Part shown: one piece after another, positions 28,078 through 59,741 of the stretch
Position numbering within the stretch: the first letter of the stretch is position 1
How the letters are laid out: each line of letters starts with the position of its first letter
Source of the DNA: Phyto melanocephala
Lineage: Eukaryota; Arthropoda; Insecta; Diptera; Rhinophoridae
Direction: 5' to 3'
NCBI GenBank assembly: GCA_941918925.1
Contig: OW799235.1
Span: 50,391,491-50,455,490, forward strand
Length of the DNA: 64,000 nt
Position numbers and translations under genes: made by a program
Notes under the pieces: generated by a model
What the model saw: only the letters and a program-made list of their open reading frames with translations
Database searches by the model: none
Told to the model about the DNA's origin: nothing

Positions 28078-28716
28078 TTAAGCCTGTTCGTCCCGAATAG
28101 GCACAAATTCACTTTTTCCGTACTTAGCGAGGCGCTCGAGATGAACCACTTTCATATTTGATCTTGGGCTCTTGTACTTCTGTATTCTATACACGACATC
28201 ATTTATTCTTTTTATCACCTTATACGGCCCATCCCAATGAGTTTGCAGTTTAGGAGACAGTCCTTTTTTCCGTTGTGGGTTATATAGTAGAACTAGCTGA
28301 CCCTCATTAAAGCCTTCAGAATTTGCTGCTCTGTCATATCTAGCCTTCATCTTGTCGCTGGTCATTTTTATTCGGCCACGAACGAATTCATGAATTTCGT
28401 CTAAATCTTTTTGTCCCCTTGAATTATATTCTTCGTGCTCATTTATTGTCGAGGGATTAATACCGAATTCTAGATCGCCTGGCAGTTTCAGCTCGGTTCC
28501 AAACATTACTTTTGCAGGTGTTCGGGATGTAGAGTCATGAACAGCTGACCTGTATGCCAACAGAAATTTTGGTATGTGCTCATCCCAGTCCCTTTGGTGT
28601 GCACTGACCACTTTTCTCAAGTGTTCCTCCAACGTGCGGTTAAATCTCTCGACCATGCCGTCAGATTGTTGATGCAGTGGCGTAGTCCTCGTTTTCGGAT
28701 ACCGTATAGTTCGCAC
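28078..28716 (-). pseudogene. Gypsy 1 integrase C-terminal part
   Basis: Carries the integrase core Glu in 'QQSDGMVERFNRTL', then 'DEHIPKFLLAYRSAVHDST', 'TPAKVMFGTELKLPGDL', and a C-terminal GPY-like region 'LQTHWDGPYKVI' with 'VVHLERLAKY'. It overlaps the end of the upstream frame by 100 bases because of a one-base shift near 28692. The ORF stops at 28078, about 12 bases before the 3' LTR, normal for compact elements. Confidence 0.9.
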
Positions 28717-29885
28717 ATTTCCTGGAATATCGCAGATTCAAAATTTCTTCCCTGATCAGAATGTAGCTCAAGCGGAACTCCATAGCGGCACACCCAGTTG
28801 TTCACAAATGCGTTTACGACAGTTTTAGCTTCTTGGTTTGGTATTGCGTATACCTCTGGCCATTTGCTAAAACAGTCGATTACAACTAGAACGTAACGGT
28901 TTCCAGGCTTACTAACAGGAAAAGGGCCTGCTATATCCATCGCTATTCGCTCAAACGGAGCACCTGAATTGTACTGCTGCAGCGCTCCTCGACTCCGTCT
29001 TACTGGGCCCTTGGCTGCGATACATTGTGCGCAATTTGCTATCCAATCAGCAACAGATTGTTGGCATCCAACCCAATAGAAACGTTGCTTTATCTTTTCT
29101 ATGGTTTTTGTAACACCAAGATGACCACCACTTGAACCATTATGAAATTCCTTCAATACCTCTTTGACTTTAGAGGATGGCACCACAATCAGATTTGTTA
29201 TCGATTTACCATCAGTACTTTCCCATTTGCGATAAAGGCACCCGTTAATAACCTGCAGACTATTCCATAGCGCCCAGTATGATTTCATCAGTGGACTTTC
29301 CGCTGATATTTGGTTACGGGTTGGCCTTTTGTCTTCCTCCTTTGCTGACATAATTTTTGCCAGTATGGGATCGTCTCTTTGCGCCGCTGACCAGTCGTCA
29401 CTTGCCTCTATATGTGTTAGTCGAACGTCAACGACACATTCTTTTCCTTCAGCTTTTGCACAATGTTTGCACTCCAATCTGCACGGTCTTCGGGAGAGTG
29501 CATCTGCATTTCCATGTTTAGTGCCCTTTCTGTGCTCAATGCTGAAATCGTAGCTCTGGAGACGTTCAATCCAACGGGCTAGCTGTCCTTCAGATTGTTT
29601 GAATTGCAGCAACCATCTGAGTGCAGAATGATCGGTTCTTAGTTCGAAGTGTTGTCCATACAGATATTTGTGATAATGCTTTACACATTCCACAACAGCC
29701 AGAAGCTCTCGTCGTGTTACACAATAATTTCTTTCAGGCTTCGAGAGTGTCCGACTGTAGTAGCCTATGACTCTTTCTGTTCCATTGACAACCTGCGAAA
29801 GAACACCACCTATCCCGTATCCACTCGCATCGCTATCCAATACAAATTTCTCCCCAGCGATGGGATATGCCAAAACTGGTGCTAC
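28617..29885 (-). pseudogene. Gypsy 1 Pol continuation: RNase H and integrase N-terminal/core
   Basis: In frame with the upstream pol ORF after the TGA at 29886-29888, to 28617. RNase H: 'LDSDASGYGIGGVLS', 'TRRELLAVVECVKHY', 'RTDHSALRWLL', 'GNADALSRRP'. Integrase: zinc-binding H-H-C-C ('HNGSSGGHLG', 'ANCAQCIAAKG') and core Asp residues in 'MDIAGPFPV' and 'HSDQGRNFES'. The frame breaks in an A-run (plus 28692-28695), beyond which it reads nonsense to 28617. The catalytic Glu is in the following frame. Confidence 0.9.
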
Positions 29886-31649
29886 TCATAACAACTCCTT
29901 GAGCTTCTTGAATGCTTGTTCTTGTGCTTCAGCCCACAAGAATGGTCGTGACTTCTTGGTGAGCTCATGTAGACTGGCAGCGACACTGGCAAAATTCGGC
30001 ACAAAACGCCTGTAGTAGGTACAGAGGCCTAGAAAACTACGTAACTCATGAAGATTTTTCGGGCGAGGCCAGTCCTTCACAGCTTGAATTTTATCTTCGT
30101 CAGTTGATATACCATCCTCTGCGACTCGATGCCCCAAGTATTTAACCTCTTTTTGGAACAATGCACATTTCTTTGCGCTCAATTTAAGTCCAGCCACTGA
30201 TATTCGTTTAAGAACTTCTTCTAGATTTTTCAGGTGATCGTCAAAACTTTTACCCATGACAATTATGTCATCAAGATACACCAGGCATGTCTTCCAATGA
30301 AGTCCCCTTAATACGCGTTCCATTAATCGCTCGAATGTGGCTGGAGCGTTGCATAGTCCAAATGGCATCACGTTAAATTGCCATAGCCCGTCACTTGCAC
30401 TAAAAGCTGTTTTCTCCTTATCTCTATCAGATATTTCTACTTGCCAATAACCACTTTGCAGGTCTAAAGTAGAGAACCATTTTGTTCCAGCTAGCGTGTC
30501 CAGAGTGTCATCTATCCTTGGTAGTGGATAACTGTCCTTAGTAACGTCATTCAGTTTTCTATAATCGACGCAAAATCTTGTGCTGCCGTCTTTCTTTTTA
30601 ACCAAAACTACCGGTGAGCTCCAAGGACTTGAAGAAGGTTCTATTACTCCATTCTGCTCCATTTCATTGACAAGCTCTTTGACTTCATTACGTTTCGCTA
30701 GAGGAATACTTCTAGGAGCTTGTTTTATAGGCCTTGCATCGCCGGTATTTATCTGATGTTTCACAAGTGATGTTCTACCTTGATGTTGACCTTTCAGAGC
30801 GAAGATGGATGCATGTTTTCTGAGTAGCTGTTTTGCTTTATTCCTATCGGACGGCGATAATCCTTTTACCCACTTCTCTACGTAGTCTGCTAGCATCTCC
30901 TGCTCTTTGTTTGACATACTGACAGGACCCGATTTTATTTCGCAGTTAATTATTGCCTCCGCTTTAGCACATTGACCTAATTCGGACTTTGGCTTGACGA
31001 CTTTTTCACAGGCGGAAAGGTTAAGCACTCTTACAGGGACTCTTCCGTCATTTCTGGTTTTGACAAGGGCTTTCGCTGTTGTTAGGTCACTTTTTATATC
31101 TGTTTGTTCTACCACCCACAACCGGTTGTCCACACAATCTCCCTCTATACGCGCCCATACTACACTTTCTGACTGTGGTGGTATTTTCTCATATTCTGTA
31201 GCAACTAGTTTCCTTACATGCACCTTATTTTCATAACCAACATCTAGGGGTATTTCAACATTCCTCCAAATCATTACCTTCTGCCCCATGTGCAGATTAA
31301 TGCCATGAGTAATCATAAAATCTGCACCGATGATTACTTCGTCCACAATGTCGGCAACGATGAATACATGATTGACAGTTATGTTGGCAATAGTTACTTT
31401 TACGATTATTTTACCATAGACAGTAGCAGGCTCCCCAGTAGCTGTTCGCAGACTTACGCCACGTAACGGTTCGATTGTGTTCTTTACTAAATCGGGTCTG
31501 ATAATAGACTGTGATGCTCCTGTGTCTATGGTAAAAATATGCCTTCGACCATTGATATACCCACAAGCAGTAAGGTTGATATTTTTCTTCTGCATAACTG
31601 ATATGGAGATTGTGGGGCCCTCGGTTATGGAAGCTAGCTCTTGCCCCAT
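29886..31649 (-). CDS. Gypsy 1 Pol: aspartic protease and reverse transcriptase
   Basis: 587 codons from ATG 31649 to TGA at 29886-29888. Protease active site 'DTGASQSI' near residues 42-49. RT from ~330: 'NGVIEPSSSPWSSPVVLVKK', 'FCVDYRKLN', 'STLDLQSGYWQV', 'FNVMPFGLCNAPATF', the catalytic 'VYLDDIIV', and the connection 'LRSFLGLCTYYRRFV'. The TGA lies between RT and RNase H, and the same frame continues open beyond it, so it is a premature stop in what was one pol frame. The Gag-Pol boundary is in a different register, consistent with frameshifting. Confidence 0.9.
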   Translation of the reverse strand: MGQELASITEGPTISISVMQKKNINLTACGYINGRRHIFTIDTGASQSIIRPDLVKNTIEPLRGVSLRTATGEPATVYGKIIVKVTIANITVNHVFIVADIVDEVIIGADFMITHGINLHMGQKVMIWRNVEIPLDVGYENKVHVRKLVATEYEKIPPQSESVVWARIEGDCVDNRLWVVEQTDIKSDLTTAKALVKTRNDGRVPVRVLNLSACEKVVKPKSELGQCAKAEAIINCEIKSGPVSMSNKEQEMLADYVEKWVKGLSPSDRNKAKQLLRKHASIFALKGQHQGRTSLVKHQINTGDARPIKQAPRSIPLAKRNEVKELVNEMEQNGVIEPSSSPWSSPVVLVKKKDGSTRFCVDYRKLNDVTKDSYPLPRIDDTLDTLAGTKWFSTLDLQSGYWQVEISDRDKEKTAFSASDGLWQFNVMPFGLCNAPATFERLMERVLRGLHWKTCLVYLDDIIVMGKSFDDHLKNLEEVLKRISVAGLKLSAKKCALFQKEVKYLGHRVAEDGISTDEDKIQAVKDWPRPKNLHELRSFLGLCTYYRRFVPNFASVAASLHELTKKSRPFLWAEAQEQAFKKLKELL

Positions 31650-31663
31650 AGTGCTAGCTCGTT

Positions 31664-32440
31664 TTAGTTTAACGGTGACTCATTTGATGCTTTCGTGTTT
31701 GCCCGTTTGCTGTTTCTAGGTGGCGAAACAGATCTAGCCCTCTTCCTTGGTGCCTTACAATTTCGCTGAAAATGTCCACTTTTACCACAATTATAGCATT
31801 TGGCTTTACCTTGCTTCTCCTCTAGCGCCTGCATAACTGCATTTTTAATTTCGGTGACTATATCTCCGTCTTTTTCTGCGGTAATTTCGAGATTTCTCAC
31901 CTTACATATTTGCGGCTTAGAGAGTAATTTCGCGGTCTCCTGTGTCAGAGCGTATGATACGGTTTCTGCAAACGTTGATTTATGTGTGCCAAACACCGCG
32001 TGCTTTATTTCTGGATCACGTATTCCATTTACAAACGTTTCAATCTTAAACTGATCCAAAAATGGGTGATTTTCACCTGGATATGTCAGCTGCACCAAAC
32101 GCTCGATCTCCGTTGCGAAATCTTGTAACGACTCGTTAGCTCTTTGTGTTCTGCCTCGTAATTCCATTCGGTATATATCTCGTTTGTGCTCGCCGCCATA
32201 CTTACGTTGTAGTGCAACCATTATGTCATCATAGTTTTCTCTGCAGCCAATAGGTATGCTTTCCAAGACTTGCGCTGCGTTTCCTTTTAAAGCCAAAATC
32301 AACTCTATAGCCTTTTCTTCATTGCTCCACATATTTCTATTGGCAACTGTCTCAAATTGAAATTTAAAAACATTAAATGGTGCACTGCCGTCAAAAGTAG
32401 GGGCCTTTATTCTACTCGATATTTCTGGAATTATTCGCAC
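31664..32440 (-). CDS. Gypsy 1 Gag capsid-nucleocapsid ORF
   Basis: 258 codons, beginning at a GTG that is not a convincing start, so it is probably reached by frameshift from the upstream ORF. Residues ~10-180 are a Ty3/gypsy capsid-like region ('FDGSAPFNVFKFQFETVA', 'ALKGNAAQVLESIP', 'YGGEHKRDIYRMEL', 'VNGIRDPEIKHAVF'). A CCHC zinc knuckle 'CYNCGKSGHFQRNC' lies near 215-228, then a basic Arg/Lys/Ser tail. It would package element RNA into particles. It ends 15 bases before the pol ORF, in another frame. Confidence 0.85.
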   Translation of the reverse strand: MRIIPEISSRIKAPTFDGSAPFNVFKFQFETVANRNMWSNEEKAIELILALKGNAAQVLESIPIGCRENYDDIMVALQRKYGGEHKRDIYRMELRGRTQRANESLQDFATEIERLVQLTYPGENHPFLDQFKIETFVNGIRDPEIKHAVFGTHKSTFAETVSYALTQETAKLLSKPQICKVRNLEITAEKDGDIVTEIKNAVMQALEEKQGKAKCYNCGKSGHFQRNCKAPRKRARSVSPPRNSKRANTKASNESPLN

Positions 32441-33267
32441 TGGTCCTCATGACATTGAAGATCATTAATTTTTATTTCCAAATTTTTAAATTTTTCGTCT
32501 TGTAATTGCAATTTTTCATCAACATTTTTTACTTGTAACTGCAATTTTTCGTTAACATCTTTAACTTGTTTTTCAACGCAATCGACTCTGTTATTCACAG
32601 CCTCAGAAATTTCCTGAAGTTTCTGGTTCGTAGCTCTAGAACATTCTTGAAATCTCAACTCCAACTCTTCTTTTACTTCAGCTAATAATTTTTCATTATT
32701 AGCTCTAGAAGTTTCTTGAACTTCTAATTTAACTTCTTGAACTTCCACTTTAACTTCAGCTAATAATTTTTCATTATTAGCTTTAGAAGTTTCTTGAACC
32801 TCGGCTAATAATTTCTCATTATTAGCTTTAGAAGTTTCTTGAACTTCGGCTAATAATTTATCATTATTAGCTTTAGAAGTTTCTTGAACTTCGGCTAATA
32901 ATTTTTCATTATTAGCTCTAGAAGTTTCTTGAACTTCGGCTAATAATTTTTCATTATTAGCTTTAGAAGTTTCTTGAACTTCTAGTTTACCTTCTTGAAC
33001 TTCAGCTAATAATTTTTGACTGTTAAGTTCCATCTTTTCCATCATAGCAGCAAGCATTGTACTCAAATCCATGTTGTTTGTGGTTGCACGAGTAGAAACT
33101 TCCATTTCTTCTTTTTCGTCAAACTCGTAACCATCAATGTCAATATTACGCCGCTTAAATTCATCTAGAAGTCTCTTTTGCAATTCCACTTTATTACCTG
33201 TTGTCAACAATGCCAGCTTACTCAATTCTTTCTTGAGTTGTTCTACTTTAAGTTCCTCAAATTTCAT
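32431..33267 (-). CDS. Gypsy 1 Gag N-terminal ORF: SAP-like domain plus repeated coiled coil
   Basis: 278 codons starting ATG shortly after the primer site. Residues ~1-40 look like a SAP DNA/RNA-binding helix pair ('LKVEQLKKELSKLAL', 'NKVELQKRLLDEF'). An acidic linker and 'MDLSTMLAAMMEKMEL' follow, then 15-residue repeats of the type 'ETSKANNEKLLAEVQ' (residues ~95-205) and further heptad-like sequence to the end, a predicted long coiled coil. The repeat is encoded by a 45-bp minisatellite. It overlaps the next frame by 10 bases in a different register, so it is either the first half of a Gag split by frameshift or a separate ORF. Confidence 0.75.
   Translation of the reverse strand: MKFEELKVEQLKKELSKLALLTTGNKVELQKRLLDEFKRRNIDIDGYEFDEKEEMEVSTRATTNNMDLSTMLAAMMEKMELNSQKLLAEVQEGKLEVQETSKANNEKLLAEVQETSRANNEKLLAEVQETSKANNDKLLAEVQETSKANNEKLLAEVQETSKANNEKLLAEVKVEVQEVKLEVQETSRANNEKLLAEVKEELELRFQECSRATNQKLQEISEAVNNRVDCVEKQVKDVNEKLQLQVKNVDEKLQLQDEKFKNLEIKINDLQCHEDQCE
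32690..33010 (-). repeat. 45-bp in-frame minisatellite in gypsy 1 Gag
   Basis: Tandem units of 45 bp ('ttcttgaacttcggctaata' start on plus) repeat about six to seven times with few differences. Because 45 is a multiple of three, unit number can change without breaking the frame; unit-number variation would only lengthen or shorten the coiled coil. Confidence 0.9.
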
Positions 33268-37993: not shown

Positions 37994-38259
37994 TAGGTAT
38001 TTTACACACACGCACACTACGTTGTCAGCGAAAGCCGCGGTGACATTTTGTTTTCTTTAAATAAATGCGTACATACATACTATATGTTTCATTATTCTTT
38101 ATAATGATTTTATCCGCTCAAAAACGTACCATTGTAAAATTATAAATTGAGTTTATGTATGTATGTATTAAAAAAAAATAAAATTATATGTTTAATAGTT
38201 TTTTAAGCTTAAGGTCCTTTTAATAATAAAAAATCTTTTTGTTTTGTTTTATATTATTT

Positions 38260-38305
38260 GATCAATATTTCGCTACTTCTTTGTGTAGCATCATCAGGAT
38301 GAACG
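38260..38305 (-). ncRNA. Hammerhead ribozyme-like core in the Penelope 3' region
   Basis: Minus strand: CTGATGA (38297-38291), T, stem II GCTAC..GTAGC with an 8-nt loop, then GAAA (38271-38268), followed by AU..AU flanking a palindromic loop ending in A. This is the hammerhead core order (CUGAUGA, stem II, GAAA, short stem III, UH). Convincing stem I pairing on either side was not found, so this copy may be inactive or split from its partner strand. Confidence 0.5.
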
Positions 38306-38932
38306 TTTTTTTATTATATATTAGTTTTTTGTTGGATTTGTGTCTTGATATTTGTTATTTTTTAAATAAATTTATAGTTTGATTAACAAAATTGAAAATA
38401 ACATAAAAATTTTTTTTAAACATTTTGTCATATATAAAAAATTTTACAAAAATGTAGTATAACAAAAAATTACAATTTATATAAAAATATTAACAAAAAG
38501 TATTATAACAAAAATTGTTGAAAAAATGTTAATAGTATTATAAGAATATGTATGTGTAATAATAGAAAAAATTTGTATAACAAAAATTCATAATTATTAA
38601 AGTATTAATAAGAATTTTATAAATTATTGTCTATACTTTAACATAAAAATATGTTGGTTTTGTACAGAATATTACAAATATTATATAAAAATTTTTTAAC
38701 AGATAATGTTATGTTACATACGTATGATACAATAATTATATATGTATAAAAGTATTGATAACAAATATTTTGTTGTAACAAAACAAGTGTATTAATATTA
38801 CTAAAAAATAATATAAAAAATGTAGATAAATAAATTATTATCTTAATGTTAAAAAAATTAATTTAAAATTAAATTTCTTTATAAAAAACTTAACAAGGAA
38901 ATTATATAAACATAAATGAATAGGTATAAGTG

Positions 38933-39862
38933 TTATTTCTTATGTATTAAATGTCTATAACTCTGTGCAACATTATCCGTATCTGCCTTATAATTAATTC
39001 TCTGTGTAGTTGGTACATTAATTATCTGTAACATTTCTAACATATATCTACGTTTATAATTATTTTCAATATTTAAAACTGATACATTTTCAAAGTTCGG
39101 AAAGTGATCAGAGTTGGAACAGTGAGAAGGTAATGCTGTCTTTTGTGAAGAAATATTCCTATACTTTTGGTCAGATTTATGTCCAGCAATTCTTGTCCTA
39201 AGTTTATTTTTCGTCGTTCCTATATAAACCTTATCACAACTTTCCCCATCATTTCCTCCGCAAGGTATTTTATATACGATATTAGACATATCCCATTTCT
39301 GTATTTTGTCCTTAGTATTACTAAACAATCTACCTATTGTATTATTCATTCTATAAGTCATCCCATATCTATTATTATCAAAAACTTTCGAATTCTTCAA
39401 CCTTTCTGACATCCCTGGCACATACGTTAACGATTTATAAATTTTCGGTTCAACTATATTCCCTGAGTTATTTTCCCTCCTTTCATTAAAATTATCCATA
39501 AATCGATTAATAAGTCCAATAGGAAAATCATTGTCAATAAGTATATCCTTAATAATCACCTTATTTTTCTTATGAAAAACTTTATCACTAATTTTCAATA
39601 CCCTTCCTACAAAATTTTTAGCCGTATTAATTTTAACTTGCCTATTGTGGCTAGAATTATAGCTTATAATTCTACCTGAAGCAGTGGGGTTTCGGTACCA
39701 ATCTATTAACAACTTATTTCCCTTTCTTAAAACTAATGTATCCAAATAGGGTAGTCTCAAATCACATTCCTTTTCTATAGTAAATTTAATTGAAGAAGTA
39801 AAATCATTAAAAATGTCTAACATTTGATCAATAAACTCTTCAGACACAATACAAAAGTAATT
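38933..39862 (-). CDS. Penelope RT C-terminus plus GIY-YIG endonuclease (partial)
   Basis: About 310 codons open to TAA/TAG at the 3' end. It starts at 'YFCIVSEEFIDQMLDIF', which in relatives directly follows the RT Tyr-x-Asp-Asp; then 'LPYLDTLVLRKGNKL', 'DWYRNPTASGRIISYNS' and 'NTAKNFVGRVLKISD', the RT thumb and linker. The GIY-YIG nuclease follows: 'NIVYKIPCGG', 'CDKVYIGTTKNKLRTRIAGH', 'ALPSHCSNSDHFPNFENV', and Tyr/Glu in 'RRYMLEMLQI'. The first codons before 39862 derive from the gypsy neighbour, so no native start exists. Intact after that point, but without the RT palm it cannot function alone. Confidence 0.9.
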   Translation of the reverse strand, partial: NYFCIVSEEFIDQMLDIFNDFTSSIKFTIEKECDLRLPYLDTLVLRKGNKLLIDWYRNPTASGRIISYNSSHNRQVKINTAKNFVGRVLKISDKVFHKKNKVIIKDILIDNDFPIGLINRFMDNFNERRENNSGNIVEPKIYKSLTYVPGMSERLKNSKVFDNNRYGMTYRMNNTIGRLFSNTKDKIQKWDMSNIVYKIPCGGNDGESCDKVYIGTTKNKLRTRIAGHKSDQKYRNISSQKTALPSHCSNSDHFPNFENVSVLNIENNYKRRYMLEMLQIINVPTTQRINYKADTDNVAQSYRHLIHKK

Positions 39863-39863
39863 T

Positions 39864-40184
39864 GTAGTCAATAATTGTCGGCATGTTTATAGTATCCAAT
39901 CGCGAGAGTGTATCCGCCACTATGTTGTTTGATCCGCTTATATGTCTAAAGTCTACGCAGAATTGGCTAATGAAATTCAGCTGCCTAGTTTGTCGTGGCG
40001 ACAAACGTTCCCATTTCTGCTCAAAAGCATGAACGAGCGGTTTATAGTCCGTGAATACTATGAATTGTGTGCCTTCTAAATAAAACCGAAAGTATCGAAT
40101 GGCTGCGTATATCGCCATTAACTCTCGATCGTACGTGCTGTAGCGCTTTTCAGTTATGGTAAACTTTTTTGAGAAAAAACCCAA
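39864..40184 (-). pseudogene. CsRn1-like RNase H, truncated by Penelope
   Basis: 'RYSTYDRELMAIYAAIRYFR', 'FTDYKPLVHAF', 'HISGSNNIVADTLSR' and 'INMPTIIDY' are the CsRn1 RNase H and linker. Right after 'IIDY' the sequence switches to Penelope RT, so the integrase half is gone. Confidence 0.85.
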
Positions 40185-41149
40185 CGGTTGCCAGTTTCCG
40201 TTGCTGTTGCAGTGCCGCTCCCATTGCCTTATCCGATGCGTCTGTCATTAGAGCCACTACAGAGCCTTTTCGAGGGAAGGCCAATAACGTCACGTCTGCA
40301 AGTTCTTGTTTAATTTTTTTGAATGCCTCTTCAGTTTTTGGTGTCCATTTTAATTTGGTTCGGTCTCGCTTTTTACAAGGACCCATCATTAGTTGCAGAG
40401 GCCCTTCAAATTCCGCGGCGTGCGGCAGAAATTTTCGGTAAAAATTGACAGCGCCTAGAAAACTTCGTAATTCTTGTGCCTCTGCCGGCTTGCTGCGATT
40501 AACGATGGCCGCCACTTTTCTAGGGTGTGGTTTTATACAATTTTTCGTTATTATATGTCCCAAGAACTCGAACTCTGGCAGGCCTACTTGACATTTTTCA
40601 ACGTTGATAATTAGACCTTTGTCCCTGTAACGCTCGAAGAGCTGCTGTAAATGGTCTAGATGTTCTTCCACTGACGTTGATGCTACCAGAACATCATCTA
40701 AGTATGGGAAAACAAAATCAAGCCCCTTCATCGTATCGTCCATAAAGCGCTGAAACGTTTGAGCGGCGTTTCGCAACCCAAAAGTCATGTATTTAAATTG
40801 GAATAGCCCAAACGGTGTTATCACCGCCGTTTTCTCAATATCTTCGGGATTGACAGCTATTTGATGATATGCTTTTTTACAATCAATTACGGAAAAAATT
40901 GTTTTACCTTCCAATTCGGCTGCGAAATCCTGAATGTGTCGTACCGGATAATTATCGTGCACTGTTTTTGCGTTGAGAAGTCTGAAGTCCCCGCAGGGCC
41001 GCCATGACCCGTCTGCTTTTTTCGCCAAATGTAGTGGGCTGGCCCATTGGCTTTTTGAGCGCACGCAAATTCCTCGGTCCAGCAAATACTCGAACTCCTT
41101 CGCGATATTCAGTTTTTCGGGAGATAATCTGCGTACGTAGTTGAGTCAT
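40150..41149 (-). pseudogene. CsRn1-like reverse transcriptase
   Basis: 41149-40952 and 41085-40150 in two frames together cover RT: 'LLDRGICVRSKSQWASPLHL', 'WRPCGDFRLLNAKT', 'IDCKKAYHQIAV', 'MTFGLRNAAQTFQRFMDD', the catalytic 'FPYLDDVLVAS' and 'FLGAVNFYRKFLPHAA'. A frameshift lies near 41085-41110, and another near 40165 where RNase H begins ('LATVGFF'). Confidence 0.85.
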
Positions 41150-41568
41150 CCGTGAGATCGATGTTTATGAAACGCATCCGTTGACTTGAGTATTGTTATA
41201 TATGTTGATGGGCACCTTACCAGTTGACAGACACGTCGTAATCGAGTTGTTCCGTCCACCAACGCTTTATCTTTCATGTTCACCAAGATATTAAAATTTT
41301 CCAAAAAATCCGCACCGATTATCGCATGTGAAACGTCTGCGATGGTAAAAACCCATTTAAATTGTCTGCGCAAGCCTAAATCTAAAGAAAGAAATTTCTT
41401 TCCATAGGTGCTAATATCCGTGTCGTTCGCTGCCAGCAGTTTAGTTAAAGAGGGTTTCAAATTCGTATTTGATGGTGTTGGAATTACAGACACCTCTGCC
41501 CCTGTGTCAATTAAAAATCTTAAGTTTGAATTTCTATCTTTTACGTAAAGACGACGTGTTTTATTCAC
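41146..41568 (-). pseudogene. CsRn1-like aspartic protease
   Basis: Open frame of 140 codons. 'LYVKDRNSNLRFLIDTGAEV' carries the DTGA active site near residue 22-25; 'AIIGADFLENFNILVNMKDK' is the second-half motif of retropepsins. It ends where the RT frame begins in another register, so pol is frameshifted near 41146. Confidence 0.85.
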
Positions 41569-41599
41569 CTGCCCCTTCTCGTTCGTCGCCGAAAACGGA

Positions 41600-42425
41600 G
41601 GGCTTACTAGTTTTCCGAAAGTTGACGAAGAAAATTACAAGGTGATCGGCATTTTGTGGCTTTTTCTTTAAAAGTGCGGTGGAACTAGCAAATTTCCGAG
41701 GACGATGACCTGCTTGGGTACGGCGATCCTCTTTGTCGTGATCTTCGTCGTTCCTGAGCCTTGCGTGTTGTTCTTTTTTGTTGATTTCTCTCTAAACGTT
41801 CAAATCTCTTCGTAAGCTCCATGATGGCCGTTTGAATATCGGTGCCTTCATTGTTCACAGAGCTCACTTTTGGTAAACTCTGCATTTCCATCATGCTATC
41901 GGCTTTTTTTGATAGCACCTCTACATCTGCTTCAATTGTAGCTAAAATTTGTTGAATTTGATACGGTAGCTGACGTAGCCACAATGATTTTAAGATTTCG
42001 CCGTTTAATATATTTCCCGACAGGTCCTTGATCTCGTGAAGTAACGCAGATGGTTTTCTTCCTTATGTTGACATGTCATCAAAAAGTCGCTTGATGCGGC
42101 TCTCCTCCGATTCACTAAATTCTGCGATTAGTCTGGATTTAAGTGTTTCGTATTTTGCATGCTCTGGTGGTGACATAATAATGTCCGATGCGCACTTCAA
42201 TATTGACGAGTTTATTTCTGACACGATGGTGTAATATTTAGTGTCATCGGTTGATATTCCAGCTCGTTTAAATTGAGCTTCGACCTGCATAAACCAGAGC
42301 TTTGGGTCCGGCTTCCAAAACGGTGGTGGTTTTGTGGCCACCCGAGACACTTGTGCTGCTGTTTCTGTCTGTGAACTTGCGCCTTGCGCTGTTGTTATTT
42401 CGTTGTTATTTTCGGTAGTATTCAT
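41600..42425 (-). pseudogene. CsRn1-like Gag
   Basis: Starts ATG 42425. 'PPPFWKPDPKLWFMQVEAQF' and 'KYYTIVSEINSSIL', then 'YETLKSRLIAEFSESEESRI' are the typical capsid region. TAA at 42063-42065 interrupts; the same frame continues through 'LRQLPYQIQQILATIEADVE' to another stop at 41685, just before a degenerate Cys/His segment ('HRTFKEKATKC') that is the usual end of this Gag. Dead. Confidence 0.85.
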
Positions 42426-44081: not shown

Positions 44082-44332
44082 CTAATAAAAACCAATTATT
44101 CTAGCTAAATAAACTATATACTAAATAACATATCTATAGCATAAATACATTAATATTAAAAATAATTTCAAAATGTGTTTCTGTAATAGAAATAAAAAAA
44201 TTTAATATTGGTTTAACATATTATATTAGATTGCTTTTTTCTAAACTTTCGGATTTGAACAATGTGCATTTCAAAGCGCACTGGGTTAAACTAGTTACTT
44301 AATTATATTTATTTGGTTGTTGGGTTTAAGCT

Positions 44333-44379
44333 GGTTTATATGCATTTCACTGGTGCTTATGCCAGATCATCAGTAAACC
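44333..44379 (-). ncRNA. Type I hammerhead ribozyme, copy 1
   Basis: Minus strand, 5' to 3': GGTTTA (stem I), CTGATGA core, T, CTGG..CCAG stem II with an 8-nt loop, T, GAAA core, minimal stem III AT-GC-AT, cleavage site A, then TAAACC closing stem I with perfect complementarity. All invariant core bases are present. The two-base stem III with palindromic ATGCAT is the form that self-cleaves as a dimer in Penelope and retrozyme hammerheads. Predicted cleavage is between plus positions 44338 and 44339. Confidence 0.8.
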
Positions 44380-44691
44380 TTTACCCAAATTCTTGAAAAA
44401 GTTTAAAATTTTTATAAGTTATATTTTTAAATTCTCATTAACAAAATGAGAATTCAAAAATAAAACAAAAACCATAAAAAACTTTTTCAAAAACCCAACC
44501 AACAATTTTTTTTAATTTTGAATTTATTTTATTTTTCTAATCCCTTTAACATTTGGCTAACCGTTGGTTAACACGAAATGTTTATAAGGGCAAACGAAAA
44601 ATAAAATCTTCTATAAGTTAATTTACTAAATTTTTTGGGATATTCTCCCATAATTTTTCAATTATATTTATTTGGTTGTTGGGTTTAAGCT

Positions 44692-44738
44692 GGATTATAT
44701 GCATTTCACTGGTGCTTATGCCAGATCATCAGTAAACC
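44692..44738 (-). ncRNA. Type I hammerhead ribozyme, copy 2 (stem I mismatch)
   Basis: Same as copy 1 except that the closing strand of stem I is TAATCC instead of TAAACC, one mismatch against GGTTTA. The core and stem II are identical. Exactly 359 bp from copy 1. Confidence 0.75.
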
Positions 44739-44998
44739 TTTACCCAAATTCTTGAAAAAGTTTAAAATTTTTATAAGTTATATTTTTAAATTCTCATTAA
44801 CAAAATGAGAATTCAAAAATAAAACAAAAACCATAAAAAACTTTTTCAAAAACCCAACCAACAATTTTTTTTAATTTTGAATTTATTTTATTTTTCTAAT
44901 CCCTTTAACATTTGGCTAACCGTTGGTTAACACGAAATGTTTTTATAAGGGCAAACGAAAAATAAAATCTATAAGTTAATTTACTAAATTTGGGTAAA

Positions 44999-45045
44999 GG
45001 TTTACTGATGATCTGGCATAAGCACCAGTGAAATGCATATAAACC
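44999..45045 (+). ncRNA. Type I hammerhead ribozyme, inverted copy 3
   Basis: Plus strand, identical to the 47 nt of copy 1: GGTTTACTGATGATCTGGCA at the start and TGCATATAAACC at the end, with GAAA between. It lies in the inverted unit, so opposite-strand transcripts of this locus would carry a full hammerhead too. Confidence 0.8.
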
Positions 45046-45300
45046 AGCTTAAACCCAACAACCAAATAAATATAATTGAAAAATTATGGGAGAATATCCC
45101 AAAAAATTTAGTAAATTAACTTATAGAAGATTTTATTTTTCGTTTGCCCTTATAAACATTTCGTGTTAACCAACGGTTAGCCAAATGTTAAAGGGATTAG
45201 AAAAATAAAATAAATTCAAAATTAAAAAAAATTGTTGGTTGGGTTTTTGAAAAAGTTTTTTATGGTTTTTGTTTTATTTTTGAATTCTCATTTTGTTAAT

Positions 45301-47842
45301 GAGGAATTCTTCGGAGGCAACTCGGCTACGAAAGATTCTATCATCGAATCCAACAATACCATCATACATACAGAGGGCGGATGGTTCGTGGACCACCAGC
45401 AGCAAAGAAACGCTGGAGGTTCTCATGGAGACACATTTCCCAGGCTGTCTAGAGCAGGACTCTCCTCCTGCTGTTGACCACACGGATGCATATGACATAT
45501 CGAATCTACCGATCACTGAGCATCGCATAAGATGGGCAGTTGGAAGTTTCCATCCCTTCAAGTCTCCAGGTCCTGATGGCGTAATTCCAGCGGATCTACA
45601 GGAGAACATCGATATTTTAATGCCATGGCTTCTGGTGATATTCAAGGCATGCTTGCATTTATCCCATGTCCCATCAAGGTGGACATCCTATAAGATTATT
45701 TTCATACCCAAGGGAAGTAAGGCCTCGCATACAAGGGCCGGCGACTTCAGGCCAATAAGTCTCTCCTTCCTGCTTAAGACTCTGGAGAGGATTATTGATG
45801 TTTATATCAGATCGTCTCTAGGACCAGAGGCTCTGTCGGGGGCACAGCATGCCTATACGAAGGGCAAATCTACGGAAACGGCGCTACACGCGCTGGTTGG
45901 CCATATTGAAAAATCTCTGAACTACAGGGACTACACCTTGGTCGCCTTCCTTGATATTGAGGGCGCCTTCAACAATGTCAAACCGGATTCGGTTCTGAAC
46001 TCCTTGAGACAACTGGACATAGATCCTGCGGTCACCGGTTTTGTGGGAAAACTACTGAAATATAGGCGCATAGAATCAACTTTGGGCGCCTCTAGCATCT
46101 CCAAGGTGGCTGTAAATGGCACACCGCAAGGTGGCGTACTTTCTCCACTGCTATGGAACATCAACATTAATATCCTGCTTAGGGCCATGGAGAATACATC
46201 CTGCATGACTGTTGCTTATGCAGATGATGTGGCTGTAGCAGCTACGGGCAAAGATCCTGGACTGCTCTCGGAGCTCTTGGAATCTGCGCTAACGTTAATA
46301 CTTAGATAGTGCCAGGGATGTGGGCTGGGAGTCAATCCTACCACAACGGAACTGGTACTGTTCACAAGGAGGTACAAAATACCGACCTTTGCTACGCCTA
46401 GGATAGACGGGGTGGCACTAGCGCTATCCGATAATGCCAAATATTTGGGTCTCGTATTGGACAGCAAACTAAACTGGAACCTGAACACAAAGTCCAGGAC
46501 CACTAAGGTGGCAACTGTATTATACTGCTGCAAGAGGACAATTGGCCTTAATTGGGTTATTAACCCTAAGAGCTTATACTGGCTATACGATTCTGTTGTC
46601 AGACCAATTCTTTATTACGGAGCGGCAGTCTGGTGGGCGGCGCTGGAGAAGAGAATCCACCAGGACAGTTTCGGACGTATTATAAGAATGGCTGCGATTA
46701 TGATAACAGGTGCTCTTAGGACCACACTATCTAAGGCACTGTTCACTATTTTAAACTGGTTACCACCAGACATCATGGCTAGGCAGATGGCTGCGGACAA
46801 CGCACTGAGGCTGAATGCCACAAGGGCATGGAAGTATGTGAATTATGGACATGCAAGAATTTTGGGTATGATCAATATTGCTTCTCCTATTGATTACAAG
46901 GTACCTGAACCAGCATTCGATCCGGGTTTCGTGACGAATATACCGGATAGATCTGAATACGACAACGGCCTCCGACCTCCGGAGAATGCCATCCAGATAT
47001 TTACTGACGGATCGAAATCACATGCTGGAGCTGGATGTGGTATCTTTTCGATCCAGTTGGGTTTGGAATTGTCCCTTAGGCTACCGGATTACTGTAGCGC
47101 GATATAGGCCGAACTAATGGCTATTAGGACAGCCGCGGAACAGATTCAGTATAATGAAATATCTGGCATGGATATTTATATTTTTACTGACAGCAAGGCG
47201 GCTATTAGGTCCCTTGAGAGTGTGTACAGCACATCGAAAATTGCCCAGGAATGCCGGGTGTCTCTTGAGGAGATAGCGAGACATTCGACGGTTACCCTTG
47301 TGTGGGTTCCAGGACATGGGGATATTGATGGTAATAATAAAGCTGATGCACTTGCAAAAGCCGGTACCACCTTAGATTCGGTTGAATCCAGTTATGCTTT
47401 GGGTATTCCCTTATCGAAGGGTAAGCAGCTAATCTCGCATCAATTCTATTTGGATGCCAAGGAAAGATGGGTGAAAGAACCCACTTGTTTAGAAAGCAGA
47501 AAGATCTGGCCTGACATGGATGTGCATAGGACCCAATATGCAGTGAATATGCCCCGAATCCACCTTAAGAACCTCATAGCGGTCATTACCGGACACTGGC
47601 CTATAGGTACACATGCGAAAAGGCTGAATATCCCTTACAACAGAAGTTGCGATAACGAGGAAGAGGAGGAGACGACTGAACATCTTCTCTGCAATTGTCC
47701 TGCATTCAGGGACCTGAGACGCCAGATTCTGGGTCAACGAATACTTGTAAGTAAAACTTGTCTTTCCGCAGTTGAATTGGGAAAGATCCATACCTTCGTA
47801 AACAGGACAGGATGGCTGAGGAACGACGGCCAGAGGACATAG
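45301..47842 (+). pseudogene. LINE 4 ORF2: RT, RNase H, zinc-binding tail (two stops)
   Basis: A single frame of about 850 codons with only TAG at 46307-46309 and TAG at 47105-47107. RT: 'NPTIPSYIQRADGSW', 'FKSPGPDGVIPADLQ', 'RPISLSFLLKTLERI', 'AQHAYTKGKSTETAL', 'FLDIEGAFNNV', 'GTPQGGVLSPLLWNI', the catalytic 'AYADDVAVAA', 'KYLGLVLDSKLNWN'. RNase H: 'FTDGSKSHAGAGCG', 'FTDSKAAIRSL', 'WVPGHGDIDGNNKADALAKA'. C-terminal 'EETTEHLLCNCPAF'. Both stops are explained by single transitions at Trp or Gln codons. The frame is open left of 45301 only by chance into the repeat. Confidence 0.9.
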
Positions 47843-47935
47843 ACAAACGGGCGATGGTGCCTACGGTATCACAACGGGACCCTCGGAGGACCCAAGTGAG
47901 CTATGCCTTTGGGCGGCTGCCGGATCTAACCTAAC
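45301..47935 (+). mobile_element. RNase H LINE, 5'-truncated (LINE 4)
   Basis: About 2.6 kb with RT and RNase H in one frame and a short 3' UTR ending 'aacctaacctaag'. A different subfamily from LINEs 1-3: the protein is only moderately similar and the tail differs. It begins directly at the end of the inverted hammerhead repeat, and no target duplication could be matched. Confidence 0.9.
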
Positions 47936-48979
47936 CTAAGATAACTGATGCACCGTATCCAAACCCACAATCCGAAAACTTACAAGCTCCTTAAAACAAC
48001 TCAAAATTGACGGGGGGTGAAATCATCACATGGCCTTCCGAGCCGGACACGTCAGTCAAAGGTACCATCTGTTCATCAATAGAGTATCTTGTAATTTCAA
48101 CAGAAGTTTCTAACTACTTCAGTCACAGGATGCACTCTCCACAACTTATTCGCCTGAATTGCATCGCTTGTATCAACAGAGTGAATTGTGTTTCGTAACT
48201 TCATAAACTTGTTTCTCAACATCAAAACTGCAATAGGATCAAAACGAAAGTTTTCGTCCTTATACATGGTAATTTTAGATTATACGTATGTATACACAAC
48301 CACTTTTTTGTAATGACTTTAGGAGAAATGTATTCAAAAGGAGCTCAAATTTTAACAAAATTCTGGCATCCTTGCATTATGGGCATAGCGTAAGTTGCCC
48401 CATTTCTTCTCTTTTATTATTTTGATTTTTAGTGTGTTGCGATGCAAAAGATTTAACTAATGTGCTACATAATTCTATCAAATAATGCCTGTTTCAGAAA
48501 ATGGAACTGTTAAAGTGGCAAAAGTAAAATAATTCGAAGCATATTCAAAAATTTCATCAAAAGAAGACTTCATTTAGTTTCCAACATGTGTATGAATATG
48601 GCTGTAAATATATTATAAATAATCTTATTTTGGCTCAAATTTATTTACTCTATTATTTAATTTCCTAAAATATTTTCTTAATTAAATTGTAATTATTTTA
48701 AGAATATTTTTTAAAAATAATTCCGATGTTAGCCGAGTGGGATGCATTTTCGAAACCAGCTACGATTTCATCCTCAGAACTCTTTATCGGTATACTCATA
48801 TGTAATTTGAAGTAACTATTTATGTTACGATTCAATGAAATTAGAATTAGGAAACATAGTATTCATTTTCAAATTTGTCTTTTATTTTCCTATTAATGAC
48901 ATTTTTTTACATGTTCTTATTCTTTTATATTCGTAATACATTTTTGGTTCTGTATTTAATTTAATTTTGTTTTTTTAAG
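47936..48979 (+). other. Presumed Tom20 intron sequence
   Basis: No element termini or coding similarity seen. It ends in a T-rich tract and AG at 48978-48979, the splice acceptor for the Tom20 exon. A tRNA-like A box at about 48730 is considered and rejected elsewhere. The upstream Tom20 exons were not found anywhere to the left, so the intron probably extends through the LINE and earlier elements, possibly out of the window. Confidence 0.5.
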
Positions 48980-55105: not shown

Positions 55106-55270
55106 TTTTATAAAATTTTTTAATTGATTTTTCAAGCTCGAGTTTTTATAAATATTTGTTGACTTATTTATTATTACACAAAGGAGTAGTGAAATATTGA
55201 ATAATAAATAAATCAACAAATATTTATAAAGACCTCGAGCTGGAAAAATCAATTAAAAAATATAACGTTT
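55106..55270. repeat. Long imperfect hairpin in the Harbinger relic
   Basis: Left arm about 55106-55176 and right arm about 55195-55270 pair through 'ttaattgatttttc', 'gctcgag' and 'tttataaatatttgttga', with a few mismatches around an ~18-nt loop. Confidence 0.85.
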
Positions 55271-56090: not shown

Positions 56091-57090
56091 TTAAATTTGA
56101 TTATCCTTTTGTCTTTTAATTCTTTCTGATCTTCTTAATTCTCTGTCTGCACTTCCACTTCTCTTTCTTTTTCTCTCTCGCTTTTTATAAGTTAATGCAA
56201 TTGGGTTATATTTTATAACTTTCCCATAGAATTTTTTTAATTGATTTACATGTGCTACTCTCTGCGTACCATTAATACTTATACAGTACCTAATGCTACT
56301 TAGTTTTCTAACAATTTTCGCGTTTATCCATTTACAGTAATTATTTAAAACATTTCGGTACAGAACCATTTTATTAACATCATATTCAGTAACATTTTGT
56401 TTTTCCCTACTATGTGCGTCTGTTTCTCCCCTTTTTACAATTATTCTGTTTTGCTTTTGGTTTTTAATTAACATTTTTGGGTTCACAAAATCGAGTAAGG
56501 TTTTTGGTTTAAAACTGAAAATAACATTAGCTGGTGCTATTCCTGTTGTTGTTGTTGTTGGTGTAGTTCGATATTTAAGTAAGAAATTGTTTATTTTAAA
56601 ATCCCAAGGTTTATGTTTGATTTTTGGGTCCAATAAATACTTCTTTAATGATGATTTAACGGTTTGTACGGCTCTTTCCGCGGACCCATTAGACTATGGA
56701 TGGTACGGTGGTGACTTCGATATCTTAATTCCACTATTCTTACAAAACTCATTGAACTCCTTTGAACTAAAGGGTGGCCCATTGTCACTTACTAATTCTG
56801 TTGGGAGCCCGAATACAGAAAAGAACGATCTCAGAGTTTCGTTTACACTTTTTGCTGTAAATGTTTTCATAATTTTTGCCTCAATCCATTTAGAAAAAGT
56901 ATCAACTATCACAAGTATAGTTATATTTTCTATTTTACAGAAATCAATATGAATTCTTTGAAAAGGTCTTTTAGGGTTTGGCCACGTTGTTATGATCGGT
57001 TTCTGAGCATTCTGATTTGCGCTACATACCTGACATGACTTGACATATGTTTCTACCTCGGAATCTACTCCCGGCCACCAAACATATGTC
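56091..57090 (-). pseudogene. Gypsy 3 integrase, N-terminus deleted
   Basis: About 57080 resumes in another frame with 'VWWPGVDSEVETYVKSCQVC' (the HHCC cysteines; the histidine part is deleted). Core: 'HIDFCKIENITILVIVDTFS' (Asp), 'ELVSDNGPPFSSKEF' (Asp), 'KSPPYHP' then TAG at 56694-56696, and the Glu segment 'GSAERAVQTVKSSL' in the same frame. C-terminus 'INNFLLKYRTTPTTTTTG' and 'HVNQLKKFYGKVIKY', ending in an Arg-rich tail at 56091. Frameshift plus stop, so inactive. Confidence 0.85.
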
Positions 57091-57094
57091 CTTG

Positions 57095-58585
57095 TTAAAA
57101 ATAGTCGGGTACTTGTTTAGGCCAACCATAACGATTGTATTTATATACTTCGGTTAGTTCATCATCTTGTTTCATGACTTTTTGTATATCTTTCATATTT
57201 ACAGGCAATTCGTGTGCTATTTGAAAAACGTTTATGCTGTCATTATCATCATCCGTTTGTTTTAACATGGGCAGACGTGATAGAGCATCTGCATGAGCCA
57301 TCTTAGATCCGTTTTTATATTTTATGTTGTAGTTATACGATGATAAAAAATAGCCCACCTGTGTAATCTGTTTGAGGCTACTGCTGGAAGTTCTTTGTTC
57401 TAATGCCTCTCGATGTAGCTGCGAATAATTTTCCTCTGCTGGTTTTAAGGAACTGGATATAAACATAACTGGGTGCTCTTTTCGATTTATAACGTGAGAC
57501 AAAACGCCTCCGACGCCGTAGGGACTAGCATCGCAAGATATTACTATTGGTTTATTCGGATCGTAATGCGTTAAGCTTTCAATTTTAGTTATAAGCTCCT
57601 TACTTTTCTCAAAGCTAGATTGATGTTTTTCTGTCCATATCCACTTAGTATTATTTCTTGTCAAATCATATAATAAATACAGTTCAGATGACAAATTAGG
57701 TACACAATGATTGTAGTAGTTAATCATTCCTAAATACGATCTTAATTGGGTTTTATTTTTCGGAGCTGGGGCTTTCACAACTGCTTTTATTTTTGACTTA
57801 GCTGGTGAGATGCCATTTTTATTAATTGTGTAACCTAAATAATTAATCTCCGTCTTAAAATATTTACATTTGTCAAAATTGATTTTAACATTATACTCCA
57901 ACAATTTATCTAATACAGCAGTTAAGTTTCTTTTACATTCATGTACATCGCCTCCACCTATCAATATATCATCGAAGTAAACTTGCACCTTTTCCAACCC
58001 TTTTAGGATTTCGCATACTATTTTCGAAAATATTTGTGGGGCAGTTTTTAACCCATACACTAGGCGTGTGTATTGATAAAGTCCCTTATGGGTATTGATG
58101 GTTAAAATTTCGCGTGATCGATCTGAAACTTTTACTTGTAGGTATGCACCGGTTAAATCTGATTTGCAAAAGTAATTCCACCCTGACAAACTTGCTAAGA
58201 TATCATCTATTCGCGGTATTACATAGTGCTCATTTTCTACAAATCTGTTTACAGTTTTACGACAATCAACGCATGTTCGAATAGATCCGTCACCTTTGTT
58301 GACAATAACTATAGGACTTGCCCATTTGCTACGGTTGACAGGAACTAACACGCCTTCTTCACACATCTTTTCGAGTTCTGCTTCAACTTTAGTTCTTAAT
58401 CCAAATGGAACCGAATGTGCTTTAGCAAATATTGGGTACGATTCCTCTTTTAAAACGATTTCAGCAGTATAGCCTTTTATTGTGGAATTATTAACGTTAG
58501 AAAACAAGCTGTCATATTTTCCAAAACACATGTTGTCAATTTGTGTATCGGGTTTTATTACATTTACATTATTAACGAATTTTCG
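57095..58585 (-). pseudogene. Gypsy 3 reverse transcriptase and RNase H
   Basis: In frame with the protease. RT: 'EGVLVPVNRSKWASPIVIVN', 'CVDCRKTVNRF' (Tyr is Cys, and Lys-Thr-Val differs from the usual YRxxN), 'SDLTGAYLQVKV', 'LVYGLKTAPQIFSK', the catalytic 'VYFDDILIGG', 'LRSYLGMINYYNHCVPNL'. RNase H: 'VISCDASPYGVGGVLSHV', 'YSQLHREALEQ', 'KMAHADALSRLP'; the middle of RNase H is shortened ('RTSSSSLKQI'). It ends at TAA just before integrase. Inactive as it stands. Confidence 0.85.
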
Positions 58586-58858
58586 TCAATGGGGAAAAAT
58601 TTTATCTATCCAATTTCTTCCCATAAGGGGCTTAAATTTTTGTTGGGTATTTAAAACCACTAACTTCAACTTATATTTCATTTTCTCAAATTCACCATTT
58701 ACAACCACATAGCCAACAACATCAACATTTTCACCAGTAACAACTTTGAGATTTTCGTATTGTTTTTCCAACCTTATATTTTTAAAATAACTATTGTAAT
58801 ATGAAATATGGCAAATTGAAACACAGGCACCTGTATCTATTTCCATTTCGACAGACAT
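58586..58858 (-). pseudogene. Gypsy 3 protease
   Basis: 'MEIDTGACVSICHISYY' gives the DTGA active site, 'PLMGRNWIDKIFP' the C-terminal retropepsin motif. It stops at TGA 58586-58588; the same frame continues open into RT, so this is a premature stop within pol. Confidence 0.85.
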
Positions 58859-58898
58859 ACCTTCAATTGTAACGACAACAACTAATGATTGTGTGTAA

Positions 58899-59741
58899 TT
58901 ACAAGTTATTTAAATAATCGTTAGTTGAATAATCACTACAATATTCGTCACTACAATAATCTACATGTTTAATAGTATTTTTGTTCTTACGCTTTGCATA
59001 TATATTTTTGTTATCATCTTTCTCTTCCTCCCTTTTTTTATTCCAGCAATTTCTCTCATAGTGGCCCCGTTTCTTGCAATAAAAACATTTTATGTCGGAC
59101 TTGTTGTTTTTCCTCTCCTTCGGGTTTATATCCTGATGATCATCCTCATAATATTTTCTTGGGCCCGATCTTGCATATTTCAGACGGTTGACTTCACAAG
59201 TGTTTCTCATAATCTCTATATTGTTGTTTGACATTTCCATTGATAAAACAATTTGGCATGCTTTTTCAAAACTTTTTAGGTCACTTTCGTTTAATATTTT
59301 ATTTTGTATACTACCGTTTGATAGACCGCAAACAAATTTGATCAGGAGAGCCTTCTCCAAAAACAATCCAAAATCACATTCTTGTGCAAGCTGTTTGAGC
59401 TCTACAATATAATCGGCTATGGTTTCCGACGATTTTTGTTCTCTTTTGAAAAATTTAAAACACTCCACAATAATAATCTTTTGTGATTTTAAATGTGTTT
59501 TTAATAACTTCACAATATCTTCATACTTATAGTCAGCTTCTGTCTTCGGTGCTACAAGGGATCTCATTATTTTATATAGGTCAGCTCCTCCAAGGCTTAT
59601 TAGAAACGAGATTTTATCTGTGTCATTTTTGATTTTATTCAGCGACAAAAGATGGTTCAACCGATTTATATAAAGGCCAAAATCTTCACCCACATTAAAA
59701 ACTTCTATTGTTCCAACTAGAGCAACTGGACCTTCTGCCAT
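58899..59741 (-). CDS. Gypsy 3 Gag, intact
   Basis: 280 codons from ATG 59741, which follows the primer site by about 12 bases. Capsid-like region 'DFGLYINRLNHLLSLNKI', 'KISFLISLGGADLYKIM', 'VKLLKTHL', 'ADYIVELKQLAQECDFG' and 'FVCGLSNGSIQNKIL'; then a zinc knuckle 'CFYCKKRGHYERNC' near residue 225 in a Lys/Arg-rich stretch. It packages element RNA. No disruption, unlike pol. Confidence 0.9.
   Translation of the reverse strand: MAEGPVALVGTIEVFNVGEDFGLYINRLNHLLSLNKIKNDTDKISFLISLGGADLYKIMRSLVAPKTEADYKYEDIVKLLKTHLKSQKIIIVECFKFFKREQKSSETIADYIVELKQLAQECDFGLFLEKALLIKFVCGLSNGSIQNKILNESDLKSFEKACQIVLSMEMSNNNIEIMRNTCEVNRLKYARSGPRKYYEDDHQDINPKERKNNKSDIKCFYCKKRGHYERNCWNKKREEEKDDNKNIYAKRKNKNTIKHVDYCSDEYCSDYSTNDYLNNL

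Follow-up and report, generated by a model that had tools for sequence, protein, structure and literature searches.

Diverging arrays of a hammerhead-bearing 359-bp unit in the fly Phyto melanocephala

A locus in the genome of the fly Phyto melanocephala holds two direct copies and one inverted copy of a 359-bp unit, each with a motif that resembles a hammerhead ribozyme. What kind of element is this, and how did it come to be inserted with one copy turned around? The answer bears on which enzyme moves animal retrozymes and how it does so, and on the old puzzle of the inverted repeats of Penelope elements. Penelope-like elements (PLEs) are named as likely candidates for the mover in the available text of PMC7761336. 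An initial annotation of this DNA described the locus as a small retrozyme and missed the nature of the inverted copy: it forms the other arm of a single insertion whose ends are of PLE type, and it is the informative part of the locus. Positions are those of the window (the whole 64,000-nucleotide stretch that was analysed), and positions within the unit carry the prefix u.

Table 1. Features of the array and of the PLE in the window
Feature	Position	Strand	Remarks
Left arm (copies A and B)	44301..44991	- (ribozyme sense)	1.92 units; outer end at u1 (end1)
Right arm (copy C)	44987..45308	+ (ribozyme sense)	about 0.9 unit; outer (tail) end lost
Imperfect palindrome within the unit, beside the hammerhead	44390..44493	.	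opposite-strand self-match 74%
Hammerhead motif, copy A	44333..44379	-	exact; predicted cut between 44339/44338
Hammerhead motif, copy B	44692..44738	-	one stem-I mismatch; predicted cut between 44698/44697
Hammerhead motif, copy C	44999..45045	+	exact; predicted cut between 45039/45040
5'-truncated PLE, outside the array	38178..39886	-	C-terminal coding region 38936-39886
PLE-type hammerhead of the truncated PLE	38256..38305	-	looser descriptor (38297) and model R1

The unit and its hammerhead motif

The unit is 359 bp long with a GC content of 24%. The direct tandem that had been described is present as two copies at 359-bp spacing (1.9 units, copy A starting at 44301), and so is the inverted third unit, as about 0.9 unit from 44987 to 45303-45308. 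The two arms overlap by 5 nt at their inner join. The right arm stops inside the unit and directly adjoins a 5'-truncated LINE (window 45303-47936) whose fragment contains an RT domain (Pfam); the exact point of this junction lies within 45303-45308. No flank duplication was found at the window locus, and none links the LINE to the array. Since the right tail end and any duplication are missing at the LINE, the window copy alone could not show a rule for the ends. The ORF check found no 110-aa frame inside the unit, and the window array holds no reverse transcriptase (RT) or GIY-YIG endonuclease frame and is therefore not filed as a PLE.

Three complete 47-nt hammerheads had been claimed; copies A and C are exact, while copy B has a mismatch in stem I (GGTTTA/TAATCC). 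The conserved core (CUGANGA, GAAA and the positions that we take to be U16.1 and H17) is all present in the unit. Stem III had been given as AT-GC-AT; on general grounds of sterics, a single A-U pair capped by a UGCA loop is more realistic. Positions 10.1-11.1 are an unpaired U.U mismatch, and an outer helix (TTGGGT/ACCCAA) lengthens stem I. A strict descriptor matches at copies A and C only and has no match in 20 simulated 64-kb sequences; a looser descriptor matches at copies A, B and C and at site 38297, with 0.06 matches expected per 64 kb (150 simulations). The initial annotation counted failure to match a covariance model against its own reading, and no Rfam hammerhead was found over the window at gathering thresholds, or locally at E<=10. 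Model R1, built from six PLE hammerheads of the same genome, also gives no match at the unit motif.

The 54-nt hammerhead stretch folds no better than its dinucleotide shuffles, 80 of 200 of which are as stable. Folded as a circle, the 359-nt unit reaches -86.6 kcal/mol, compared with an average of -53.6 for its shuffles (0/100 as low), and much of this energy comes from the AT-rich palindrome. The exact 47-nt motif is kept in 132 of the 146 full units of the mapped arrays, and its conservation does not exceed that of the remaining unit sequence (rank 178 of 287 windows).

These observations raise the possibility that the motif is a chance look-alike in an AT-rich interspersed repeat and has no ribozyme function. 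The missing Rfam match, the U.U at 10.1-11.1, the shuffle-like folding of the short stretch and the lack of excess conservation all speak for it. It is nevertheless improbable given how rarely the looser descriptor is expected to match, the outward-extending helix around the core and the manner in which the unit inserts, which is that of hammerhead-bearing PLEs. Comparison with the axolotl also argues against it. Canonical type I hammerheads of metazoan retrozymes have loop-loop contacts. According to the available text of PMC7229834, the axolotl retrozyme hammerheads share with the unit a weak helix III and a basal U.U in helix II. One of the two axolotl hammerheads has a one-pair helix III with a palindromic tetraloop and the other (HHR_Amex2) tolerates the U.U at 10.1-11.1; both cleave, with weak activity as monomers and stronger activity in dimeric constructs. 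The unit sequence is consistent with an RNA that would cleave itself to 359-nt units.

One further candidate, an ORF start at the hammerhead ATG (MHINQLKPNNQ), was rejected after peptide and position comparisons with fly PLEs. When 1094 open ATG 14-mers were ranked by a profile of 44 fly PLE N-termini, those of copies A and C came second and third and that of copy B eighth. The idea was dropped because local alignment of the peptide was no better than that of shuffled peptides and because the ATG lies 171-200 nt past the hammerhead in the 11 PLE starts that have one.

Arrays across the genome

The initial annotation called for a search for further 359-bp units, and the Phyto melanocephala genome (740 Mb, 9 contigs) returned at least 407 matches. 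All clusters among the matches listed were mapped, which gave 34 loci: the window and 33 others, counted one by one with kinship through segmental duplication ignored. Two head-to-head arms are found in 31 of the 34 loci, the window included; the exceptions are L049, L051 and L059, in each of which one arm was mapped (L049 has a weak second arm, 88%). The arms always diverge, and the converging order occurs in 0/34 loci. At each join a run on the plus strand meets one on the minus strand, which makes the ribozyme sense strands face outward. Arms are 0.09 to 14.45 units long, and 49 of the 59 arms classified (by end classes set by hand) exceed one unit. The lengths of paired arms look independent, for example 8.34 + 0.30 or 1.69 + 4.20 units.

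The outer ends follow a rule. Both are intact in 28 arrays, and in every one of these a first end falls no more than 7 nt from u1 and a second at u312-u322; no intact array has two ends alike (u1/u1 or tail/tail). This count leaves out L038, L058 and the window, each with one truncated end, and takes six outer ends at u353-u354 as end1; a narrower script window gives 22/22. The two ends are about 41 nt apart on the unit, which gives the retrozyme a tail of 41 nt, and the tail is on the left in 16 arrays and on the right in 12. Flank words of at least 12 bp are common to both sides in 21 of 33 arrays (window excluded) compared with 26 of 1056 pairs of mismatched flanks, although a good number of the words have a simple, AT-rich sequence.

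Two direct repeats and one inverted repeat with an end and a tail make up the Penelope layout, as far as the available text of PMC3846280 describes it. The window copy could on that ground be a wrecked autonomous PLE whose terminal repeats remained when its reading frame was deleted after insertion. Such an origin is very improbable, and as a general account it is refuted by the unit-unit junction, which recurs in arrays genome-wide, and by a scan with five PLE proteins that found no PLE coding in the fetched array loci.

The inner joins are more varied (n=31). Five overlap by at least 5 nt and nine by 0-4 nt; filler separates the arms in the others, 1-20 nt long in 16 joins and 62 nt long in one. 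An overlap of at least 5 nt is expected in 2.7% of random joins. At the window, the overlap at the join and an inverted piece that is almost exactly the reverse complement of 44430-44750 would suit a snap-back, in which one strand is primed and the single cDNA folds back and copies itself as the second arm. Self-priming has been suggested for Penelope inverted repeats (PMC3846280, available text). However, overlaps of this size occur in only 5/31 joins, copy C does not carry the stem-I change that it should have taken over from copy B, and the independent look of the arm lengths does not favour a copied arm. Self-priming would also not readily place the outer ends at two different fixed sites in 28/28 arrays, and we regard a snap-back origin as highly unlikely.

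Sequence divergence (146 full units, gaps ignored) is 0.18% within arrays, 0.19% across arms and 1.39% between arrays; L049 (3.9%) and L055 (1.0%) are less homogeneous. In the nine arrays with at least five units and both arms, 29 non-majority variants are common to all units of both arms, no variant is fixed in just one arm, and polymorphism within an arm affects 70 columns. When every array with full units on both sides is included (20 in total), the counts are 51 common variants, 30 fixed differences specific to one arm (a single array accounts for 11) and 82 polymorphic columns; where an arm has a single unit, any private change is scored as arm-specific. No more than 5 of the 51 common variants are confined to a single array, which means that the majority mark subfamilies too. 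Eight positions deviate in at least 5 of the 34 arrays, all within u206-u344 and apart from positions of end trimming, a post hoc observation on which no argument is built.

Class of the element and its Penelope-like relatives

The initial assignment to a small retrozyme is the best-supported class. It follows from the lack of RT and endonuclease coding, the dispersed arrays of one to many units, the flank duplications and the hammerhead-bearing PLEs in the genome, and the short, AT-rich, non-coding unit lies within the range of metazoan retrozymes (tandem units of about 150-450 bp, GC <45-50%). Metazoan non-LTR retrozymes are described in the available text of PMC7229834 and PMC7761336 as non-coding tandem repeats of about 170-400 nt with low GC, whereas the fly insertions are nearly all diverging arm pairs. 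The first of these sources also reports a type I hammerhead in every unit, PLEs in the same genome and insects among the carriers, as far as its available text goes. In the fly unit, the candidate type I hammerhead has its core present, a helix III of one pair and no Rfam match. Target duplications of metazoan retrozymes, where present, exceed 4 bp (PMC7229834, available text), compared with at least 12 bp at 21/33 fly arrays, and their monomer RNA is both linear and circular, a form predicted for the fly unit too. The LTR retrozymes of plants are also non-autonomous, carry hammerheads and are thought to move via RNA circles; they differ from the fly unit by the presence of LTRs, by hammerheads of type III, by a higher GC content and by target duplications of 4 bp (PMC7229834, available text). 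The retrozyme class is already known, and the diverging-arm anatomy of a PLE-type insertion is the new part. Retrozyme arrays diverging between an end1 and a tail were not found described in titles and abstracts of mostly open literature, which does not establish their absence from print.

PLEs share with the fly arrays an inverted repeat at the head of the insertion and a 30-40-nt tail at one outer end, along with AT-rich targets, duplications and a minimal hammerhead in the leader. All 28 intact fly arrays show this PLE-like combination of end/tail asymmetry and inverted repeat. The arrays differ from PLEs in their lack of an RT/endonuclease frame, their 359-bp unit and their hammerhead stems, which the PLE-based model R1 does not match.

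PLEs also occur in the same genome, in which a fly PLE protein has at least 55 matches, many with open frames of 800-860 aa. Hand grouping of the 55 matches listed gave nine opposite-strand clusters, 9/9 of them diverging, and several with two or three copies per arm. One diverging array (G000:C6:9106878-9122006) contains five full-length PLE frames, two leftward and three rightward. Of eight PLE arrays, five are readable at both ends. Each of these shows end1 on its left side and a tail of 34-38 nt on its right side; the flanks share words of 13-16 bp in four of them and an A-run, judged by eye, in the remaining one. The other three arrays are internal, truncated or not alignable. A CTGANGA..GAAA hammerhead is present in 11 of the 20 PLE starts fetched, and none of the 20 has a leader closely similar to the unit. 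Stem I of the PLE hammerheads covaries (48/48 cells paired, 5 changed on both sides) and stem II is invariant. Five PLE segments have a stem that encloses end1, and the unit shows no evident counterpart.

The window itself contains a 5'-truncated PLE, which over 38178-38574 (397 nt) matches the leader of another, full-length PLE of this fly at 98.2% identity. No Pfam families were found in its protein fragment, which was named by its homologues; the best is 63% identical over 98% of the fragment, and the named homologues are from flies, plus two Eumeta (moth) records. A remnant of a PLE-type hammerhead with its core deleted lies at window 55165-55206 (model R1, E 2.3e-5). Coding remains of LTR-type retroelements occur at window 28078-33267, 39840-42425 and 56091-59741; the second of these adjoins the truncated PLE, and the two that were scanned contain RT and RNase H domains. 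A pattern search and a PLE scan of viral contigs found no relatives, and a search of genome contigs found one RT stretch, 57% identical, in a bacterial bin.

A proposed mode of insertion

The window array is, with a probability of about 0.7, an insertion of a non-autonomous animal (non-LTR) retrozyme that a PLE enzyme would have copied from circular RNA, priming on both sides of a staggered break. Repeated hammerhead units, diverging arms with two fixed ends, flank duplications and near-homogeneous arrays are observed; from these sequences we infer that the RNA is cleaved and circularised, that the break is staggered and which enzyme acts as helper. Read-through transcripts would be cut at the hammerheads into 359-nt monomers, and the monomers would be ligated into circles. 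The PLE reverse transcriptase/endonuclease would bind the unit RNA and make a staggered cut in AT-rich DNA, and each 3' DNA end would prime reverse transcription, with u1 as the start for one and the tail site for its partner. Both primers would travel round the circle, each 0.1 to 14 times, before the two cDNA ends were joined in the middle of the array. Arms of unlike length with two different fixed ends would result because two primers act on one small circle, and the left arm of the window locus would be the u1-primed one. The shape of the insertions suggests that the enzyme of another family of jumping genes copied a small RNA circle repeatedly from both ends of a break.

The behaviour of known PLEs agrees with this reading in some respects. 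Penelope insertions often have a head-to-head inverted terminal repeat with an optional tail on one copy (PMC3846280, available text), and the fly arrays have the same layout in a non-coding element, plus multi-unit arms of unlike length. The PLE protein of Anolis cuts and extends both strands, with internal starts at two adjacent sites; in vitro the start site is the same for both strands, and the hammerhead requires the protein for cleavage and is dispensable for insertion (PMC11167929). This in vitro behaviour also weighs against our preferred reading, as do the use of mainly unprocessed RNA by that protein, the failure of Rfam and R1 to match, the lack of excess motif conservation, the polymorphism within arms, the arm-specific differences, the less homogeneous arrays L049 and L055, the small share of common variants that are confined to one array, the lack of a PLE with a similar leader and the lack of an end1-bracketing stem in the unit.

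Homogeneity within arrays and variants shared across arms fit the repeated copying of one monomer by both primers. The homogeneity may also be compatible with later homogenisation, or with a linear multimer as template if the array that it was transcribed from was homogeneous. The same retrozyme with PLE-type ends could accordingly have arisen from a linear multimer template or by unequal exchange after insertion, with no circular RNA. This alternative gains from subfamily variants common to many arrays, from within-array homogeneity, which alone has no need of circles, and from unprocessed RNA being the main substrate of the Anolis PLE in vitro (PMC11167929). It is unlikely in view of arms that end at varied unit positions and reach up to 14.45 units and of the variants common to both arms; moreover, active hammerheads would presumably cut a linear multimer.

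Copying of a circle by a PLE enzyme, as preferred here, has implications for PLEs themselves. A PLE end signature is found in every intact array mapped, and both arms look copied from one monomer; the question of the helper and the puzzle of the Penelope inverted repeats thus become directly testable. The chances are about even that retrozymes and PLEs share two-sided rolling-circle target-primed reverse transcription, with two fixed, mutually exclusive start sites on one circle. If they do, full-length PLEs of this fly would likewise owe their tandem arms to circular PLE RNA. The inner ends of the retrozyme arms are unevenly spread: 18 of 30 arms taken as tail-primed stop at u207-u271 (L032-L064 and the window), and 10 of 29 taken as end1-primed stop at u11-u37, near the predicted cut at u38/u39. 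Both clusters were noticed post hoc and possibly stem from RT stops or cleavage.
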